Below are positions 5,027 through 49,845 of a DNA stretch of 56,454 nucleotides, piece by piece. The translations under genes were made by a program, and so were the position numbers. Origin of the DNA: Candidatus Eisenbacteria bacterium (GTDB taxonomy: Bacteria > Orphanbacterota > Orphanbacteria > Orphanbacterales > Orphanbacteraceae). Below the pieces are notes generated by a model. That model saw only the letters and a list, made by a program, of their open reading frames with translations, was not told the DNA's origin and made no database searches. The stretch covers positions 1 to 56,454 of the forward strand of contig JAFGGD010000027.1 in the NCBI GenBank assembly GCA_016930695.1, in the 5' to 3' direction. Position 1 is the first letter of the stretch; every line of letters starts with the position of its first letter.

Positions 5027-5782
5027 TCAACCTTCCCCCCCTTCCCGCGCCTCGGGAAAGGCGAGCTCCACCAACGCCGGGAGGATTTCCGCCGCCTTCC
5101 CCCGGAGGGAGATGTCGGCGTAACCGGAGAGGCCGGTCTCCTCCGGGTTGATCTCCACTAAACGCGCGCCCGACTGCTGCGCCAGAACCGGCAGGGTCGC
5201 CGCGGGATGAACGAGCGCCGAAGTCCCCACCACCAGAAAGAGATCGGCGGCGACGGCGGCGTCGTGCGCTCGCCGGAGCGCCTCCTCCGGCAGCATCTCG
5301 CCGAACCAGACCACGTCGGGGCGCATCGGATGCCCGGCCCGGCAGCGGGGGATCCCGTCCCCCTCCGAGCCGTCGGCGGTTCTCGTCTCGCCGTCCGACT
5401 CGCAGCGGGCGCGGAAGAGGTTGCCGTGCAGCTCCACCGGATCGCGCGAGCCGGCCCGCGCGTGGAGGCCGTCCACGTTCTGCGTGATCAGCGTGAAAGA
5501 GGGGAGGAGCCTTTCGAGTCGGGCGAGGGCGAGGTGAGCGGCGTTCGGCTCGCAGGCGGCCACGAGGCGGCGCCTGTGGCGGTACCACTCCCAGACCAGT
5601 TCGGGATCCCGGGCGTACGCCCCGGGCGTGGCCAGATCTTCGGCGCGATAGCGGCGCCAAAGCCCTCCTTCGCCGCGGAAGGTGGGGACTCCGCTCTCGG
5701 CGGAAACGCCGGCGCCGGTCAGCGCCGCCGCGCGCCGGGCGGCGCCCAACAGGCGGGCGGCCCCTTCGATCCCTTCCTTCAA
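5027..5782 (-). CDS. SIR2-family NAD-dependent protein deacylase (class III, SIRT5-like)
   Basis: A 251-residue sirtuin that removes acyl groups from lysine using NAD. It starts at the TTG at 5782, with GAGGAG seven bases upstream. NAD-binding GAGVSAESGVPTFRG is at 23-37, QNVDGLH at 101-107 and the catalytic histidine at H119. Y67-x-x-R70 in WEWYRHRR is the pair that selects succinyl and malonyl lysine in SIRT5 and CobB, so desuccinylation or demalonylation is predicted. The zinc site is unusual: the standard four cysteines appear as C127, D130, C147 and H151 (RCESD and PRCRAGH). It lies between the selenoprotein and the VWA gene, 58 bases after the former. Confidence 0.92.
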   Translation of the reverse strand: MKEGIEGAARLLGAARRAAALTGAGVSAESGVPTFRGEGGLWRRYRAEDLATPGAYARDPELVWEWYRHRRRLVAACEPNAAHLALARLERLLPSFTLITQNVDGLHARAGSRDPVELHGNLFRARCESDGETRTADGSEGDGIPRCRAGHPMRPDVVWFGEMLPEEALRRAHDAAVAADLFLVVGTSALVHPAATLPVLAQQSGARLVEINPEETGLSGYADISLRGKAAEILPALVELAFPEAREGGEG

Positions 5783-5840
5783 GGGAAACTCCTCGCGGGG
5801 AAAAAGTCCGGGAGAGGCCGGAGATCGGGGCGGTGCGTGA

Positions 5841-7250
5841 CTATCCCCGCCCGTGCCGGGTCGCGTTGGTGCAGACGATCTTGGAACGGTACTTCGCGTA
5901 ATCCCAGTTCGGGCTCCACTCATTGGTGTGGCACCCGCGGCAGGTCGCCTCATCCACCTTCTTCCGATCGGGCCCCCGGATGTGCTCCGTCCCCCGGCCG
6001 TGGCACGCTTCGCACTGCACGTTCCAGAGTTCCGGCTGCAGTTCCGTCCGGGAGTGGCCGGTCCTCTCGCCGAATCCGGTCACGTGGCAGTGCCAGCACT
6101 TGGGGTTGTTCCAATCGTCTCCCTCGGCGATGGTGGCGTAGGCGCGGGAGTGGGGCGTCGTGTCCCAATAGTCATTCACGTCGGCGTGGCAAAGGGCGCA
6201 GTTGTCGATTCCCAGGTATTTTTTGTACTGCTCCTGGTCGACGCGGGCCTCCCGCTCCACCTCGTTTCCCTCATCCTTCTTCCCGCTCTGCGCCTTCGCG
6301 TCCGACACCTTCCGGACCCGGTTGCCGTTTTCGTCGAGTTCCATCTTCTCCCAGGTGATGGCGCGGATCTCCGAATCGACGGGCCCCTCGTCCTGCTTGA
6401 GATCCAAAGTGGTTCCCTCGAAGGTGCGGACGTACCCGTCCTCCCAGACCAGGGTCAGCTCGCCCAGCTTGTCGCTCCGCGCGCCGCCCGCCATCAGGAT
6501 TACGCCGTTGGACTTCTGCGGTTCCTTCAGTTCCCGGCGCCCGTGCCCGACGAGGATCACGTCGAAACCGGCGAGAGAGTCCGCGAATTCCTCCGCCTTC
6601 TCCATTCCGGAATGGGCGAGAAGCACGGTGATGTGGACCTTCTTTTTCTTCATCTCCTCGAGGGCGCGGCGGCTGCTCTCGATCGGATCCGCGACCGTGA
6701 TCCCCTCCCGTTCCTTGAGGGTGCGTGGGATGATCGATTCGCCCCCGATGACGGCGGTGACGCCCACCTTGATCTCGCCCGCCGACAGAACCGTCCAAGG
6801 CTCATAGCGGGTCTTGCCGGTTTCCGCGTCCAGAATGTTGTTGGAGATCACGCGAATGCCGTGCTGCGCCAGCGCCTCGTCCAGTTCGTCCAGCCCCCAG
6901 CTGACTTCCTTCTCGCCGATGGTGACCAGATCGTAGCCCATCATCTCGAGGGATCGGAGCGTGATGTCCGTGTCGTACCCGTACGGAGGATTCCGCCGGG
7001 CGACGAAATTGCCGAGATCGACACTGATCACCGGGTTCAACTCGCGTCGGGTTTCAATCTCGCCGGCCCGCCGGGCCAGCCCACCTTTCCCCTTAGAGTG
7101 TCACCCACAGGGCTTCAGTTCGCCGATCGTTTCATTGGAGAAGAAAAAGGTGACCGTCTGCGGACCCTTCGGCCCGAGAAGACCGAAGAAGGTGCAGCCG
7201 GCGCCCAGAAGCAAGACGGCCGCCAGGGCGACCCCGATCGTTCTTTTCAT
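5841..7250 (-). CDS. Candidate selenoprotein: UshA-like phosphoesterase / tetraheme cytochrome lipoprotein
   Basis: A 469-codon reading frame from the ATG at 7250 to a TAG at 5841, interrupted only by TGA at 7101-7103 (codon 50). The lipoprotein signal ends LLGAG-C19. Residues about 33-285 follow a metallophosphoesterase/5'-nucleotidase pattern: TVTFFFSNETIGELKPCGU, GGLARRAGEI, VDLGNF, YDLVTIGEKE, VGHG. Family members known to me read PCGC before GGLARR, so the UGA replaces a cysteine. Residues 345-460 carry four heme-c sites, C351ALCH, C385WHCH, C413EACH and C437RGCH, as in cytochrome c-554 proteins. Several classical metal ligands are absent (GEKE instead of GNHE), so phosphatase activity is doubtful and a redox role more likely. 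It is predicted to be lipid-anchored in the envelope. Alternatives are a nonsense mutation or sequencing error. Confidence 0.82.
7062..7100 (-). promoter_or_regulatory. Candidate bacterial SECIS hairpin
   Basis: Directly after the UGA the mRNA can fold an 8-bp stem, GCUGGCCC (7080-7073) with GGGCCGGC (7069-7062), closed by a GGC loop. The loop begins 28 nucleotides after the UGA. Bacterial SECIS elements lie in the coding region with a small apical loop roughly 16-37 nucleotides downstream and a G in the first loop positions; this fits. The region is GC-rich, so a chance hairpin cannot be excluded. Confidence 0.55.
7101..7103 (-). other. In-frame UGA, probable selenocysteine codon (U50)
   Basis: On the minus strand the codons read GAA CTG AAG CCC TGT GGG TGA CAC TCT. 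The frame is open 49 codons upstream to the lipoprotein ATG and 419 codons downstream. The 20 codons right after the TGA (HSKGKGGLARR and on) continue the protein family and contain no good start codon. UGA followed by C is a weak stop context. The neighbouring cysteine (PCGU) suggests a C-G-U redox pair. Confidence 0.78.
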
Positions 7251-7430: not shown

Positions 7431-10400
7431 TCAGAACCCGAGGCGTCTCTCCCCTTTCTCGTAATAGATCTCGGTGTGCGCCTTGATACGGATGTTGAAA
7501 TAGTATTCCCACTCCCGGCCCGAATATCGGCCGCGGAGGCTCGCCTCCCAACAGTGGAGGTTCCTTCCGATCCGGAAGCCCTGGCTGACCGTCTCCCGCG
7601 CCTCCAGGTCGTATCGGTTCTCGTAGTCGATCTCCCAGTTCGCGGTGAGACCCACGCCGAACCGCGAGTTCAGCCACTGGCTGAAGTCGCCCGACTGAGA
7701 ACCGCGGGAAAAGCTGTGGGAGAAACTCGCCGTCCAGGGAATGGAGGAGGAGTCCCGCGCCTTGCCGCTCGAGAATCCCCCTTCACCGCGGTACGGCTCG
7801 GTCCGGTCCTCCTCGAAGGGGACAAGGGACTCCGTCTTCTCCTCGAAGAGACCGGCGTCGGGGGAATCGGCGTCGCCGAAACCGCCGCTCACCGTCTTCC
7901 CCAAGGTGCCGCTCAGCCGGAGGCTGGACCGCACCGAAAGACCGCTGAAGATCCATGTATAAACATTGTGCGACAGGGAAAGCTCGGAGCTGAAAACCTG
8001 CACCGGCTGGAAGCGAAGCGACGACTGGAGCTGCGACCAGGGCTCCTCGCCCTCGCTGCGGTCTTTCTCGAGATCGTAACCGATGGAGTTGGTGAGCAGC
8101 AGGAGCTGATCGTTGCGCCGCTCCTCCTCGCCCACCCGGTACTTGGTCTGCAGCTTGTTGGAGAGACGGAAGCCGAGGGTGCGGCTCGCCCTCTGGGAGC
8201 CGCCGAAGCCGCTGAAGGTGTAGAAACGGTCCTGCGTGGACCCGTCCTCGTCGACGGCGAAGTGGTTCGGGTTGCGCGGCCGGTAGCTGAAAGAGACCGA
8301 CGGCGTGGCGATGTGCCGGACTCCGATCAGAGGGCCGATCCGGGGGAACCAAGTCCCGTACACGTTGGTGTTCACCGACGCGGAAGCGTCCATTGTGCCG
8401 CGGCGCACGTTTCTCTGTCCCAGCTTGTCCCGATCGTACCAGTTCTCCTCCCAGTTGAGCCGCGTGCTGAGGCCGAGCCATTCCCCGACCTTGTGCGAGA
8501 GGTTGAGACCCAGGTCGTGCTTCCATCCGGCGTGATCGTCCCGCTCGTCCCCGTTCTTCTCGCGCGCGTTGAGGAGCCGCGAAGAGTACTGCCAGTAGAT
8601 GCCGTTGTGCCACCTGCGGTCGGCGCTTCCGCCCCCCGTCTTCTCCTCCGGCGGCGGGATCAGCTCGCGCCGGCTCATGGTGAAGTTGACCGAGGGGAGG
8701 GTCTCGTCGATCCGGTCCTGGTCGAGACGCTCCGTGCGTGTCATCTGTACCTGAACCGACTTGTCGCTCCACCGTTTTTTGAGCACCAGATCCGACTTGA
8801 GGGTCCGATCCAATTCCTCGAGTGTGGTGGACTCCTCCACCCGGTAGGACTTGTCGCTCACGAAGTTGGCCCGCATGGTCAGGTCCAGGTCCTCGCCCAA
8901 CTCCTGGGTGTGGTTCGCCTGTACGCTCCACCGCTTGCGCCCGCCGACGGAGCTCTTGTAGGACGTGTTCAGCGAACCGCTCAGCAGGTAACGGACGCGG
9001 TAGCGGCCGTCCAGGTAGCCGACCCAGTGGGAGTCCTGGTAAAAATCGCCCCGCACGGTCATGTCCGCGTAATCGTTGATCGCCCAGAAGTAGCCGCCGT
9101 TGCGGATGAACCGGCCCTTGCTCTCGGAGAAACCGAACTCCACCACCGGCAGGATGAATCCGCTCGCCCTCCCTCCCTTGAGGGGGAAAATATAATACGG
9201 GAGCGCGATGAGGGGGATGTCGGCGATGTACAGGACGATGGGCGCCACGACCGATTTGTCGTTCAGGTAAATCTTCATGCGATCGGCGCGGAAATAATAG
9301 TGGGGATGTTCGAGGTCGCAGGAGGTGTATTTCCCGTCCCGGAGAAGCAGCGTGTTCGGGCCGACACGAACGATCTCCTCGCCGTAGCAGATTCCCTGGT
9401 CGTACTTGGTGACCCCATCGAAGATCGTTCCCTGCCCCCGGTCCACGTTGTAGATCATCCTCTTCCCGTCCACCCGGTCCGGCCCGTCCTGGAGGACCGG
9501 AGAGCCGAGGGCGTTCACCACGGAGCGGGAGAGGTCGTAGCGGATCCGCTCCGCGTCGAGCTGCATATCCCCCTGATCCACGTGGGCGTGGCCGATGAGA
9601 ACCACCAGATCCCGGTCGGTGTGGAACTCGATTCGGTCCGCGTGGTAGCGCGCCCGTTCCTTCTCCTCCTCCTCCTCTTCCGCGTCCGCCGGGACGGAGA
9701 CGTGGTCCCCTTGGGCGGCGCCGGCCACCTCGATCCTCTTCAGGTCCTCCTCGACGAGAAAGAAACGAATCGTGTCCCCGGCGGCGTGATTCTTCTCCCG
9801 AACGCCTTCCTCCTTGTCCAGCAGAAAGCGGTCGCTGACGGCGCCGCCGACCGCCGTCACCCGCGAAAGGTCGCCTCCGGCGAAGAGGAGGTCGATCCGG
9901 TCCGCCTCGGTCACCCCCGTCTCCTCCAGAAAGGGTTCCATCTTCCGACTGGCGAGCCGTCCGCTCCCGAGGACCGCCACGCTGTCGATCTCATGCTCCT
10001 CGTTGAAGCGGATGCGGATGGAGTCCCCCCCCATGCTCTCCCCCTCCCGGACGAGAGAAGGAGAACCGGTGAGGAGCACGACCCGTTCCTCGCCCTCCAT
10101 CACGGTCTTGTCCGAACGGGTATTCACGTCTTGGTAGGCGCCGCGCGTGGATCCGGAGGCGATGATCCTCTCCTCGTCCGTCAGGAGAGTGATCGTGTCC
10201 CCTTCGAGGCTGCCGATCTCGGCGCGCAGGCTGTCCATCTCGATGAGGCGCGGGGACTCGGTCACGATGATCCGGTCGTCGGAGAAAAGAGCCCGCCCCC
10301 CCAGGATCCGGTAGAAATCCCTGTAGAGTTCCAGCTCCACTCCGCCGAGGGCGATCGCTTCGCCGCTCCCGCCGTGGACGGTGAGGGAGTCGGCGATCAC

Positions 10401-10901
10401 GCTTCGGGAGGAGTCGAGCACCGTGACGGATCCGAAGAAGCGGGCCGAGTCGGCGTCCGCCTCCGCGCCGCCGGTGTGAAAGATCCCCCGGTCGGCGACG
10501 ACGGTCCGGTCCCCCTCCACCACCAGCACCCCCCGGGGAAAGATCATGATCTCCCGGTCCCTGTCGATCAAGCCGAGGGGACCGTAGATCCAACTCCCCT
10601 CCCGGTAGATCCGGACGCGTCCGGACATGCGGAGCGTCCGGTCCCCCTTCAGCCAAACCGCGCGATCGCCGGCGGCGTGAACCCCTCGATCCCGGTCGAG
10701 GTAACGGACGTTGCCGATGACGTCCACCTCGGTGCCGCCGTCCGAGAGGGAGCGCGCGGAGAGTCGATCGCCGGTGAGATAGGCGTGTTCGGGGAGTTCC
10801 TGGGAGGCGGCGCGGACCGGAAAAAACGCGAGCAGAAGCGCGAGAACCGGCGCGAACCGGCCGGCGCGGAATGCGGCGCTCATGGCGTACGCGGCGTCCA
10901 T
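7431..10901 (-). CDS. lptD: LPS-assembly outer membrane protein LptD, extended form
   Basis: A 1156-residue exported protein (signal peptide within the first 32 residues; a second ATG at 10883 is possible). The first half is built of OstA/LptA-like segments that describe LPS-binding beta-jellyroll, e.g. GNVRYLDRDRGVHAAGDRAV and MQLDAERIRYDLSRSVVNA. It contains an acidic run (AEEEEEEKERAR) near residue 410. The conserved LptD linker is clear: YTSCDLEHPHYYFRADRM, then ADIPLIALPYYIFPLKGGRA and SGFILP. The remainder is beta-barrel-like with many aromatic-ended strands, ending in F. E. coli LptD is about 780 residues, so the periplasmic part is much enlarged. It follows accD after 97 bases. It places LPS in the outer leaflet together with LptE, not seen here. 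Confidence 0.88.
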   Translation of the reverse strand: MDAAYAMSAAFRAGRFAPVLALLLAFFPVRAASQELPEHAYLTGDRLSARSLSDGGTEVDVIGNVRYLDRDRGVHAAGDRAVWLKGDRTLRMSGRVRIYREGSWIYGPLGLIDRDREIMIFPRGVLVVEGDRTVVADRGIFHTGGAEADADSARFFGSVTVLDSSRSVIADSLTVHGGSGEAIALGGVELELYRDFYRILGGRALFSDDRIIVTESPRLIEMDSLRAEIGSLEGDTITLLTDEERIIASGSTRGAYQDVNTRSDKTVMEGEERVVLLTGSPSLVREGESMGGDSIRIRFNEEHEIDSVAVLGSGRLASRKMEPFLEETGVTEADRIDLLFAGGDLSRVTAVGGAVSDRFLLDKEEGVREKNHAAGDTIRFFLVEEDLKRIEVAGAAQGDHVSVPADAEEEEEEKERARYHADRIEFHTDRDLVVLIGHAHVDQGDMQLDAERIRYDLSRSVVNALGSPVLQDGPDRVDGKRMIYNVDRGQGTIFDGVTKYDQGICYGEEIVRVGPNTLLLRDGKYTSCDLEHPHYYFRADRMKIYLNDKSVVAPIVLYIADIPLIALPYYIFPLKGGRASGFILPVVEFGFSESKGRFIRNGGYFWAINDYADMTVRGDFYQDSHWVGYLDGRYRVRYLLSGSLNTSYKSSVGGRKRWSVQANHTQELGEDLDLTMRANFVSDKSYRVEESTTLEELDRTLKSDLVLKKRWSDKSVQVQMTRTERLDQDRIDETLPSVNFTMSRRELIPPPEEKTGGGSADRRWHNGIYWQYSSRLLNAREKNGDERDDHAGWKHDLGLNLSHKVGEWLGLSTRLNWEENWYDRDKLGQRNVRRGTMDASASVNTNVYGTWFPRIGPLIGVRHIATPSVSFSYRPRNPNHFAVDEDGSTQDRFYTFSGFGGSQRASRTLGFRLSNKLQTKYRVGEEERRNDQLLLLTNSIGYDLEKDRSEGEEPWSQLQSSLRFQPVQVFSSELSLSHNVYTWIFSGLSVRSSLRLSGTLGKTVSGGFGDADSPDAGLFEEKTESLVPFEEDRTEPYRGEGGFSSGKARDSSSIPWTASFSHSFSRGSQSGDFSQWLNSRFGVGLTANWEIDYENRYDLEARETVSQGFRIGRNLHCWEASLRGRYSGREWEYYFNIRIKAHTEIYYEKGERRLGF

Positions 10902-13484: not shown

Positions 13485-15029
13485 CTACCTCTTTGGGGTG
13501 AGAACCGCGCAGGGGAGTATCATCTCCTCCAGCGAGATCCCGCCGTGCTGGAAGGTGTTCCGGTACTGTCGCTCGTACTCGTGGTACCGGGTGGGATAGA
13601 CGAAGTAGTAATTCTCGCGGGCGAAAATATAGTTCTTGTTCAGCGAGTCCCGGGGGAGCTTGTAGTCCTCCGGGTTCTTTACCTTCACCGCGTGCCGCTC
13701 GTCGCAGCCGAGGTTGCTCCCGTGCTTGTAGCGAAGGTTGGTGGAGGTCTCCCGGTTCGCGTGCACCATGGTCGCCTTCCGTCCCAGAATCGCCCCGTGG
13801 TCCGAGGTGAGGACCACCGTCGCGTCCTGCGACGAAATCGCGCGCAGAATCTCGAAGAGAGAAGAGTGCCGGAACCAGGAGGTCATCACCGATCGGAAGG
13901 CGGCCTCGTCCGGCGCGAGCTCCCGCAGGATATCCGACTCGGACCGTCCGTGAGTGAAGATGTCGACGAAGTTGATCACCAGGGCGACGAAGGGAACCGA
14001 GAAGAGGGAACTGACCTGCCGCTTCAGTTGGTTCCCCTCGTCGGGATTGTAGATCTTCACGTATTTCAGGTTGCGGCGGAGGCGCACCTTCCGGCGCTCG
14101 AGCTGCGCCTCCAGGAGCTGCTTCTCGTGGCGGTTCTTGCTCCCCTCCTCCTCGGACTGCTCCTGCCAATACTTCGGGTGGATCCGCGCCAGATCCATCG
14201 GGAGGAGCCCCGAGAAGATGCCGTTCCGGGCATAAGGGGTCGCCGAGGGGAGAATCGAATAGTAGTGGTCGTTGCGAATCTGGAAATAGGGATCGAGCAG
14301 GCGCTCCATCTCCATCCACTGGTCGAGCCGCATGCAATCGATGATGACCAGATAGACCCGCTTCCCCTCTTCGAGGAGGGGGAGCACCCAGCGATCGACC
14401 AGGTCCGTCGAAAGGGGCGGACTCTTCTCCCCTCCCACCCAACCGGCGTAGTGCTTCTCCACGAACCGGGCGAACTCGGCGTTCATCTCCCGGCGGACGT
14501 CCTCCTGGGTCTGTTTCAGGCCGACCTCGCGAAAGCGCTCCAGCTCCAGGTCCCAGCGGGAGAGGCGGCGATGGATATCGATCCAATCGTCGGCGTTCGC
14601 CGTCTGCGCGAGCGCGCGAATCCGGTTGAACTCGCCCAGGTAATCCCGGGCGATCCCCGTCGATTCGATCCTCTCCTTTTCGAGCACCCGGCGGAGGGCG
14701 GAGAGGATCTGGACCGGGTTGACCGGCTTGAGGAGATAATCGTTGATCCTCTTGCGGATCGCCGTCTCGACCAGGTCCTCCTCCTCGCTCTTGGTGATCA
14801 TGATCACCGGGAGGTCCTCATGGAGTTCCTTGATCCCCTCCAAGGTGGAGAGCCCGTCCCGCCCCGGCATCATTTCGTCGAGAAGGACCGCGTCGAACCG
14901 CTCCTCCCGGACGCGGCGGATCGCTTCGTCGCCGGAGGTGACCGTGACCACCTCGTACCCGCGCTCGCGCAGGAAGATCACGTGCGGTTTCAGCAGGTCG
15001 ACTTCGTCGTCCGCCCAGAGAATACGCAT
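13485..15029 (-). CDS. porX: PorX-like response regulator with PglZ domain
   Basis: A 514-residue protein combining an N-terminal receiver domain (acid pair D7/D8, phospho-acceptor D51 in LLDEMMPG, T79, K101) with a C-terminal PglZ/alkaline-phosphatase-superfamily domain (LVIIDCMRLDQW near 217, VVLTSDHGAI near 400). This order and length match PorX, which controls expression and function of the type IX secretion system in Bacteroidetes and works with the kinase PorY. The histidine kinase gene lies immediately upstream, 54 bases away. The target of PorX here is unknown; the M6 protease at 20972 is a plausible T9SS-type cargo. Confidence 0.85.
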   Translation of the reverse strand: MRILWADDEVDLLKPHVIFLRERGYEVVTVTSGDEAIRRVREERFDAVLLDEMMPGRDGLSTLEGIKELHEDLPVIMITKSEEEDLVETAIRKRINDYLLKPVNPVQILSALRRVLEKERIESTGIARDYLGEFNRIRALAQTANADDWIDIHRRLSRWDLELERFREVGLKQTQEDVRREMNAEFARFVEKHYAGWVGGEKSPPLSTDLVDRWVLPLLEEGKRVYLVIIDCMRLDQWMEMERLLDPYFQIRNDHYYSILPSATPYARNGIFSGLLPMDLARIHPKYWQEQSEEEGSKNRHEKQLLEAQLERRKVRLRRNLKYVKIYNPDEGNQLKRQVSSLFSVPFVALVINFVDIFTHGRSESDILRELAPDEAAFRSVMTSWFRHSSLFEILRAISSQDATVVLTSDHGAILGRKATMVHANRETSTNLRYKHGSNLGCDERHAVKVKNPEDYKLPRDSLNKNYIFARENYYFVYPTRYHEYERQYRNTFQHGGISLEEMILPCAVLTPKR

Positions 15030-46894: not shown

Positions 46895-47920
46895 TCAAAC
46901 GAGGACCTCCTCCAGGCGGCCCGCCGCCTCTTCCGCGGCGCCGCGCGAGACGTCCAGGTGGGTCACCAGCCGGATCCTCCCGGCGCCGAGGGAGAGGAAG
47001 AGCACCTCCTTCTCCGCCATTCGACGAACGATCTCCGCTTCGCTCCAGCGGTGTTCCGACACGTCGGCGTAGATGATGTTCGTTTGCACGCGGTCCATCT
47101 CCACGGAGAAGCCCGGGATCCGATTGAGCGTTTCCGCGAGGAGGCGGGCGTGCGCGTGGTCGTCGGCGAGACGTTCCCGGTGATGCTCCAGCGCGTACAG
47201 GCCGGCGGCGGCGAGAACGCCCGCCTGGCGCATGCCGCCTCCGAGCATCTTGCGGACCCGGCGCGCCCGCCGGATGAAATCCGCGCTCCCGGCGAGCACC
47301 GAACCGACCGGCGCGCCGAGCCCCTTGGAAAGGCAGACCGTGACCGAATCGACGGCGGCGGCCCAGCGCGCCTCGGGGACGCCGGAGGCGACCGCCGCGT
47401 TCCAGAGCCGCGCCCCGTCCAGGTGGGTACGGATCCCCCGCTCCCGCGCGAAAGCGCCGATCCCCTCCATCTCCTCGATGGGGAACACGGTCCCCCCCGC
47501 CCGGTTGTGCGTGTTCTCCATGCAGATCAGCGTGGTGGGGGCCGCGTGCACGTCGTCGGGCCGCACCCTCTTTCCCACGTCGCGCGCGGTGAACGCCCCC
47601 GCGCGTCCGGGGACGGTCCAAAACTGGACGCCGCTGACCGCCGCGGCGGAACCCGCCTCGTAATGGACGATGTGCGCCTCCGTGTCGAGGATCACCTCGT
47701 CGCCGTGACGGGTGTGGGCGCGCACCGCCGCCACGTTCCCCATCGTTCCGCTCGCCACGAAGAGCGCCGCCTCCTTCCCGAGCAACTCCGCGGTCCGCTC
47801 CTGCAGGAGGTTCACCGCCGGGTCCTCGCCGAAGACGTCGTCCCCCACCTCGGCGCGGGCGATTCGCTCGCGCATCTCCGGCGTCGGCCGGGTCACCGTG
47901 TCGCTTCGGAGATCGATCAT
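46895..47920 (-). CDS. ltaE: Low-specificity L-threonine aldolase
   Basis: A 341-residue PLP fold-type I enzyme cleaving threonine and allo-threonine to glycine and acetaldehyde. The N-terminus [17 protein letters not shown] is diagnostic; the PLP lysine is K199 in [26 protein letters not shown] is conserved. Its ATG overlaps the selB stop by 4 bases. Confidence 0.94.
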
Positions 47921-49845
47921 CCCCCCTCCTCCTCCTTTTCCGCCGGGAAGGCGGAACCGGGTACGCGCCGGTCTCCCTCTCTCCGCGTGATCCTCTCCTG
48001 ATCGAAAAGCTCCAGTAGAGGGACGGCGAACTTGCGGGAGAGTCCCGTCTCGTCCTTGAAGTCGGTCACGCCCATGCTCCCCCGCTCGCGGAGAAGGCGG
48101 ACCGCCGCCTCTCGGAGACGATCGATTTCGGCGGTGCGGTAAATCAGGTTCGAGGCGACCCGCCGGACGCGGTCCACGCGGACCAACGAGTCGACGAGCG
48201 CGGTAAAATGTTTCGTATCCAAACCGAGTCGGCCGGCGAGATCCGCCGGCGAGGGGGGCGCGGCGCCGCTTTCGTCGAGAAGCGCCTCGAGGCGGCGCGC
48301 CTCCCGCTCCACCCGCTCCGGGAGTTCCCCGCCGCCTGGAAAGAGCGAGTCCCCGCGAAGGCTCACCTTCTTCCGCTCGACCAGGCGATCCAGGATGATC
48401 TGGAAAAGGGGAATCTCCACCCGCCGAGAGAGATTCTTGCGCACTTCCTCCCGGGGAATGCCCGCCTTCAGCCCGCCGCCCGAACCGGCGTCGCGGACCC
48501 TTTCCTCCGCCTCGGCGGCCAATTCGTCGAGCACCCCGGCGAGGACCACCATCCCGGCGACGGAACGGGCCTCCTCCCGCTCTTCCAGCGGCCGGAGCGC
48601 CTCGCGCACCTCCTCCTCGGGGATCTGCAGGCGCGCCGCGATCTCCGCCGGCGTGGCCGCCGCGCGGGGTCCGGCGGCGAGCAGGGCGCGCACCATCTCG
48701 GACCGGTCGCCGCTCTCGGCGACCCGGAGAAAGGCGAGGTCCTCCTCCTTCCGGCTCCGCCGGTGCTTGGTCGGGCTCGGGTCGAGCACGGTCCCGCCGC
48801 CGAGGGTCCGCGCCGGCGAATAGGTGCGGAGGATGAACCGGTCCCCGCGGGTGAGGACCACGGGCGACTCGAGCCGCAGCTGAATCAGCCCCGCCCCGCC
48901 CGCGTCGAGATCCTCCTTTTCGATCAGCGCCACACGGCCGAGCACCTCCGCCGCGCCGTGGTGGAACCGCACCCGCTGCCGGTGCCGGAGGCCGCGCCCC
49001 TGCTCGGAGAGCCGGACCCGTCCGTCCACCATGTGGGTGGGGGTGAGGACGCCGGGCGCGGCGAGCGTGTCCCCCCGCGCCACTTCTTCCCGGGATACGC
49101 CGTGCAGGGCGAGCGCCGACCGCTGGCCGGCCCGCGCCTCCTCCACCTCTTCGCTGAAAACCTCGACCTTTCGCACACGAACTTCCTTGCCCGAGGGGAG
49201 AAGGTCGAGACGGTCCCCGACCCGTACCGTCCCCGACCAGACCGTGCCGGTCACCACCGTGCCGAAACCGCGGGAGGAGAAGACCCGGTCCACGGGAAGG
49301 CGGAACCAGTCCGGCGCGGGCCGCTCGGGCGCCTCCCGGAGGATCGCGGCGAGCCTCTCCGCCAGCTCCGCCACCCCCTCGCCGGTCACCGAGGAGACCG
49401 CCAGAATCGGCGCGTCCTCCAGAGCGGTTCCATGGAAGGCCTCCTCCACCTCCTCACGGACAAGCTCGAGCATCTCCTCGTCCACCAGGTCCTTCTTGGT
49501 GAGCGCCACAAGGCCGGCGCGGACGTCCAGGTAATGAAGGATCTCCAGGTGCTCCACCGTTTGGGGCATCACCCCTTCGTCGGCGGCGACGGTGAAGAGG
49601 ACCGCGTCGATCCCCCCCACGCCGGCGAGCATGTTCTTGACGAACCGTTCGTGGCCGGGCACGTCCACCACCCCCGCCCGGACGCCCCCGGGAAGATTCA
49701 GAGGCGCGAAACCGAGATCGATGGAGATCCTCCGCTCCTTCTCCTCCTTGAGCCGGTCCGTGTCCACTCCGGTGAGAGCCCGCACGAGCGCCGTCTTGCC
49801 GTGGTCGATGTGGCCGGCGGTGCCGATCACGCGGGTGATGCTCAT
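47917..49845 (-). CDS. selB: Selenocysteine-specific translation elongation factor SelB
   Basis: A 642-residue GTPase that brings Sec-tRNA-Sec to in-frame UGA codons and binds the SECIS hairpin. G1 GHIDHGKT (11-18), G3 [13 protein letters not shown] (61-73), G4 TKKD (116-119), then beta-barrel domains ([17 protein letters not shown]) and about 300 C-terminal residues of winged-helix repeats that bind SECIS RNA, ending with [20 protein letters not shown]. Length and domain order fit SelB (E. coli 614). It directly supports selenocysteine use and the recoding of the UGA at 7101. It overlaps prmC by 4 bases. selA, selC and selD are not in the window. Confidence 0.97.

Follow-up and report, generated by a model that had tools for sequence, protein, structure and literature searches.

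UshA-like selenoproteins (COG0737) with a CxU motif were reported in the 2008 Global Ocean Sampling study, where they accounted for 76 selenoprotein sequences (PMC2398784), and the family is listed in a 2022 review (PMC9312934) and, under the NCBIfam accession NF041198, in a 2026 review (PMC13188914). Members of NF041198 ('UshA_like_PCGU', 'UshA-like (seleno)protein') combine an UshA-like domain bearing a PCGU motif, UGA decoding and a tetraheme C-terminal part. A gene of this kind is present on the minus strand of the 56,454-nt Candidatus Eisenbacteria contig analysed here (the window), and its product matches NF041198 across both the UshA and heme parts (E=6.6e-74, 249.3 bits). The score falls below the curated cut-off of 275, as do those of the orthologues (209–241), while the other Sec paralogue of the source genome passes at 275.3, placing the window protein in a divergent clade missed by the cut-off. 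This clade is further set apart from NF041198 by the motif KPCGU-[HK][SG]KGKGGLARRAGE and by a position beside lptD and sir2. Cytochrome_C554 is the only Pfam family matched above its cut-off, and due to the low NF041198 score automatic annotation may well end the gene prematurely at the UGA or assign it too late a start. A second model, NF049981 (UshA-like selenoprotein family 2), covers a related UshA-like N-terminal part, but membership was rejected based on a score of 38.5 bits, where the cut-off is 140, and a CxU motif instead of the described CxxU.

Outside of the family, UshA, CD73 and SoxB share the fold of residues 31–303, though the window protein is without most of their metal ligands and their catalytic His and has gained a CGU motif. 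Compared to 5'-nucleotidases, a tetraheme domain replaces the nucleotidase C-terminal domain. This domain, with four CxxCH sites and the Cytochrome_C554 match, resembles cytochrome c554 of Nitrosomonas (PDB 1bvb), which is a stand-alone protein, whereas the window heme domain is fused to a Sec domain. Matches from a plasmid search were all below 60% identity and, where annotated, of the ordinary 5'-nucleotidase kind.

With the TGA translated as Sec (U), a single product of 469 aa extends from the ATG at 7250 to the TAG at 5841 (minus strand, as are all window features below), containing one in-frame TGA only (7103–7101; residue 50, motif PCGU, read as Sec by column comparison). The two same-frame open stretches noted on either side of this TGA in the first-pass annotation proved to be one ATG-to-TAG gene, and the lipoprotein signal, UshA-type domain and four CxxCH sites listed there are all found in its translation. 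A lipobox, LLGAGC, with a predicted lipidated Cys19 (7194..7211), is followed by FFFSNETIGELKPCGU-HSKGKGGLARRAGE and a long UshA-like region, with residue 50 spanned by the motif GELKPCGUHSKGKGGLARRA. The UshA-like metallophosphoesterase fold (residues 31–303; 6342..7160), recognized by profile, structural model and Foldseek, precedes heme sites CALCH (residue 351; 6186..6200), CWHCH (residue 385; 6084..6098), CEACH (residue 413; 6000..6014) and CRGCH (residue 437; 5928..5942).

The UGA is shared widely amongst relatives. In each of the six same-family genomes sampled, the orthologue (partial in one case) has a TGA in precisely this column, and approximately 82 distinct motif-bearing members divide into approximately 66 with TGA and 16 with TGC or TGT, a count that leaves out an out-of-frame second motif match at L068 and comes from a motif search that admitted no residue other than Sec or Cys there, so that less common ones may have escaped it. 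Scanning of named genomes contributed 80 further loci, chiefly from Candidatus Eisenbacteria and Krumholzibacteriia, with some from Nitrospirae, delta-proteobacterial and other MAGs. The column was invariant as Sec or Cys in 61 of 61 aligned members, and a tree of 74 members places at least four Sec/Cys switches on well-supported branches. Cys-containing relatives with CGC before GGLARR do occur, as stated in the first-pass annotation, whose broader reading, a UGA decoded as Sec to give a Cys-Gly-Sec motif in a multiheme protein of the envelope, is strongly supported. That reading had been tied to Cys or Sec at the column, to a genuine TGA and to a genome with tRNA-Sec and SelD; the column is Cys/Sec, the TGA recurs in independent genomes, and both components of the machinery are present.

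The source genome (3.78 Mb, 95.8% complete) encodes the complete bacterial Sec kit of selA, selB, selC and selD. The selB gene previously noted in the window is complete (47917–49845; 642 aa; TIGR00475, 368 bits; Pfam SelB domains), and a search for the remaining genes, as had been proposed, recovered all three, including a tRNA-Sec with anticodon tca (71.6 bits). TGA is the usual stop of the neighbouring lptD-like, sir2, 737-aa and selB genes, indicating that the genetic code has not been reassigned, and, taken with the same-column TGA in six genomes and purifying selection on the frame, that the in-frame TGA is more than chance.

Bacterial SECIS elements are described as having a loop of 3–9 nt, a stem of 4–16 bp, a G among the first two loop nucleotides, a spacing of 16–37 nt and a minimum free energy of at most -7.5 (PMC13188914). 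The SECIS prediction proposed for the vicinity of the UGA identified a hairpin, GCUGGCCC-GGC-GGGCCGGC, at 7080–7062 that conforms to each of these rules, with a 3-nt apical loop (GGC, 7072–7070) starting in GG, an 8-bp stem, a spacing of 28 nt after the UGA and an energy of -14.8 kcal/mol. Across 50 distinct TGA members this stem occupies the identical place, gap-free, with 92.8% of cells pairing. These members had been preselected for GCCCG or GCTCG plus a GG at the tip of the stem, which leaves the invariant inner pairs of little evidential value; the covariation sits in the outer pairs. There were 28 double-sided stem changes in this set compared to 10.2 expected from shuffles, and a covariation of 0.283 compared to 0.154 for shuffled alignments and at most 0.072 once the structure was slid. 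In one covarying pair both partners are third codon positions, which are only weakly constrained by the protein.

The hairpin further distinguishes Sec from Cys forms at the level of synonymous codons. Ala-Arg-Arg is encoded as GCC CGG [C/A]GG in 53 TGA forms and in 1 Cys form, and when ranked against synonymous shuffles the hairpin has a median of 0.06 in Sec forms and 0.305 in Cys forms (p=2e-5; 67 TGA rows, with the L068 false match still among them). It is absent from most Cys forms, including Cys paralogues adjoining Sec copies in the same genome; in the tandem pairs at L086 (2455–5413) and L117 (3917–8400), each from one genome, the Sec copy keeps the Ala-Arg-Arg codons and the Cys copy has GCG CGC CGC, synonymous codons that remove the SECIS stem. 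Natural experiments are provided by such genomes with both Sec and Cys copies, in which synonymous codons retain or lose the SECIS, and by members in which Sec persists without the partner Cys (see below). The energy of the whole region folded around the window UGA was ordinary (z of -0.16 to -1.33), and 51-nt fold energies were alike in Sec and Cys forms (p=0.84), with only the specific hairpin separating them. No family was assigned to the UGA region in an Rfam search (best match 12.6 bits, E=10), and thus the case for a SECIS is built on the bSECIS rules and the covariation.

A second set of family members has a GGCGGUCUGGCC-type hairpin closer to the UGA. This second SECIS type, a GGCGGUCU-GCC hairpin with its loop approximately 19 nt after the UGA and a GGUCU element, was found at L016, L017, L063, L089, L091, L095, L111, L113, L114 and L136. 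The GGUCU element is reminiscent of the E. coli fdhF SECIS. The hairpin of the window gene is unlike the E. coli type.

Were the TGA instead a true stop or a sequencing error, the downstream part would be a separate ORF or a pseudogene, and both the ordinary use of TGA as a stop nearby and the longest downstream ORF available without read-through (399 aa, TTG start at 7040) might be taken in favor of this. That ORF would omit the conserved GGLARRA segment, however, and the protein is conserved on both sides of the TGA, including the residues between it and 7040; downstream of the UGA third codon positions are the least conserved and second positions the most, signifying purifying selection on the frame. 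With the identical TGA in independent genomes and a conserved SECIS that accompanies TGA but not Cys forms, a stop or an error is scarcely credible, and decoding of the UGA as Sec appears near certain on comparative sequence evidence. Placement of the gene in the known UshA-like CxU family along with that decoding is predicted with high confidence. In the first-pass annotation the gene was taken to represent an undescribed selenoprotein family, a claim that fails given the 2008 report and the later listings, though its account of the sequence held at each point checked. The score of the window clade below the NF041198 cut-off could suggest a wholly new family, as could the cytochrome part, which goes undiscussed in the UshA-like papers found, but NF041198 is itself named for PCGU and spans both domains, and the paralogue from the same genome clears its cut-off, making such novelty very improbable. 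Literature searches returned no multiheme selenoprotein of this kind and no NCBI curation paper beyond the works cited. What is modestly new is a divergent lptD/sir2-linked clade lying under the annotation cut-off, the strong SECIS covariation, and family members without the partner Cys; a well-supported clade is thereby added to a selenoprotein family of unknown function.

The likeness to UshA is supported by an AlphaFold model based on 61 sequences (pLDDT 78 overall), in which the UshA-like domain is mostly above 90 and confidence is low at residues 49–52 (the Sec loop) and in most of the heme domain; it replaced a weak earlier model from 13 sequences (pLDDT 67). Foldseek matches of the model to a 5'-nucleotidase (3ivd, E=2.7e-21), UshA (1ush, E=3e-20), CD73 and SoxB (2wdc) are those of a COG0737 UshA-like fold. 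The two-metal ligands and catalytic His of the 5'-nucleotidase and SoxB enzymes are not retained as a set. Two ordinary 5'-nucleotidases from the same genome served as the alignment reference. Relative to these, in the window protein TNDxH is without its Asp and His, GD without its Asp, GNHE without its Asn-His and GHxH without its second His, and the downstream catalytic Asp is gone as well (replacements: D to E, H to I, D to N, NH to EK, and second H of GHxH to R), leaving the H213 and H236 positions as the only metal-site residues kept. Most of these positions are usually replaced across the family as well. Since most metal-binding and catalytic residues have been substituted, the protein has probably lost its phosphoesterase activity, and the tetraheme fusion suggests a role for the family in envelope electron transfer and not nucleotide hydrolysis.

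Position 48, the partner of Sec50, is Cys in 58 of the 61 aligned members, Thr in two and Val in one. A PVGU Sec paralogue in the source genome (L010:1483-2907; G000:C28:13376-14752) keeps Sec and the hairpin with Cys changed to Val (GTC), and PTGU occurs at L121 and L137, both from Candidatus Eisenbacteria. Due to the PVGU paralogue, a Cys-Sec bond would not be universal in the family, and the constancy of position 50 set against the occasional loss at position 48 suggests that Sec50 is the reacting, essential residue and Cys48 a usual but dispensable helper. In the proposed mechanism, SelB bound to the hairpin just 3' of the UGA would deliver Sec-tRNA-Sec, giving a predicted full-length lipoprotein that carries a Cys48-Gly-Sec50 pair. 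The loop holding this pair comes after strand one of the 5'-nucleotidase/SoxB-type fold, beside the former metal site, and could form the active site. There the selenol/thiol pair most likely performs redox chemistry in the cell envelope, either of the thiol-disulfide type or on a substrate, with the fused cytochrome-c554-type tetraheme domain carrying electrons to or from it. This redox-to-heme mechanism is somewhat favored on balance.

It is doubtful that the protein continues to act as a metal-dependent phosphoesterase or a SoxB-like thiosulfohydrolase in which Cys-Gly-Sec binds a metal or sulfur intermediate with no redox cycling. Such an enzyme would accord with the best fold matches being to 5'-nucleotidases and SoxB, with the retained His213 and His236 positions and with the occasional loss of the partner Cys, but is difficult to reconcile with the replacement, usually family-wide, of the first-motif Asp and His, the GNHE Asn-His, the catalytic Asp and the second GHxH His. 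Beyond the redox-to-heme mechanism preferred here, a more specific and only tentative proposal is that the lptD/sir2-linked clade is functionally separate, its decayed phosphoesterase site having been turned into a selenol redox centre wired to the hemes. If so, the loss of Cys in the PVGU and PTGU members would mean that the chemistry, and electron transfer to or from the hemes, depends on a lone selenol instead of a Cys-Sec bond.

The window gene lies between an LptD-like gene just upstream (7431..10901) and a SIR2-family gene just downstream (5027..5953, the true start of which is probably inside the ORF), an order conserved in the three relatives checked, though the link with lptD and sir2 may be merely positional. 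Elsewhere in the family, Sec forms without hemes and with the same SKGKGGLARRAGE motif are present at L061:1170-3081 (G003) and L060 (G006). Downstream of the Sec form at L061 are an ORF with an LMWPc match, ArsC-like on visual inspection, and what seems to be the final part of an ACR3 arsenite exporter, a hint of a connection to arsenic for this heme-less form. The window additionally encodes a fusion of a response regulator receiver domain with a PglZ domain (13485–15029).
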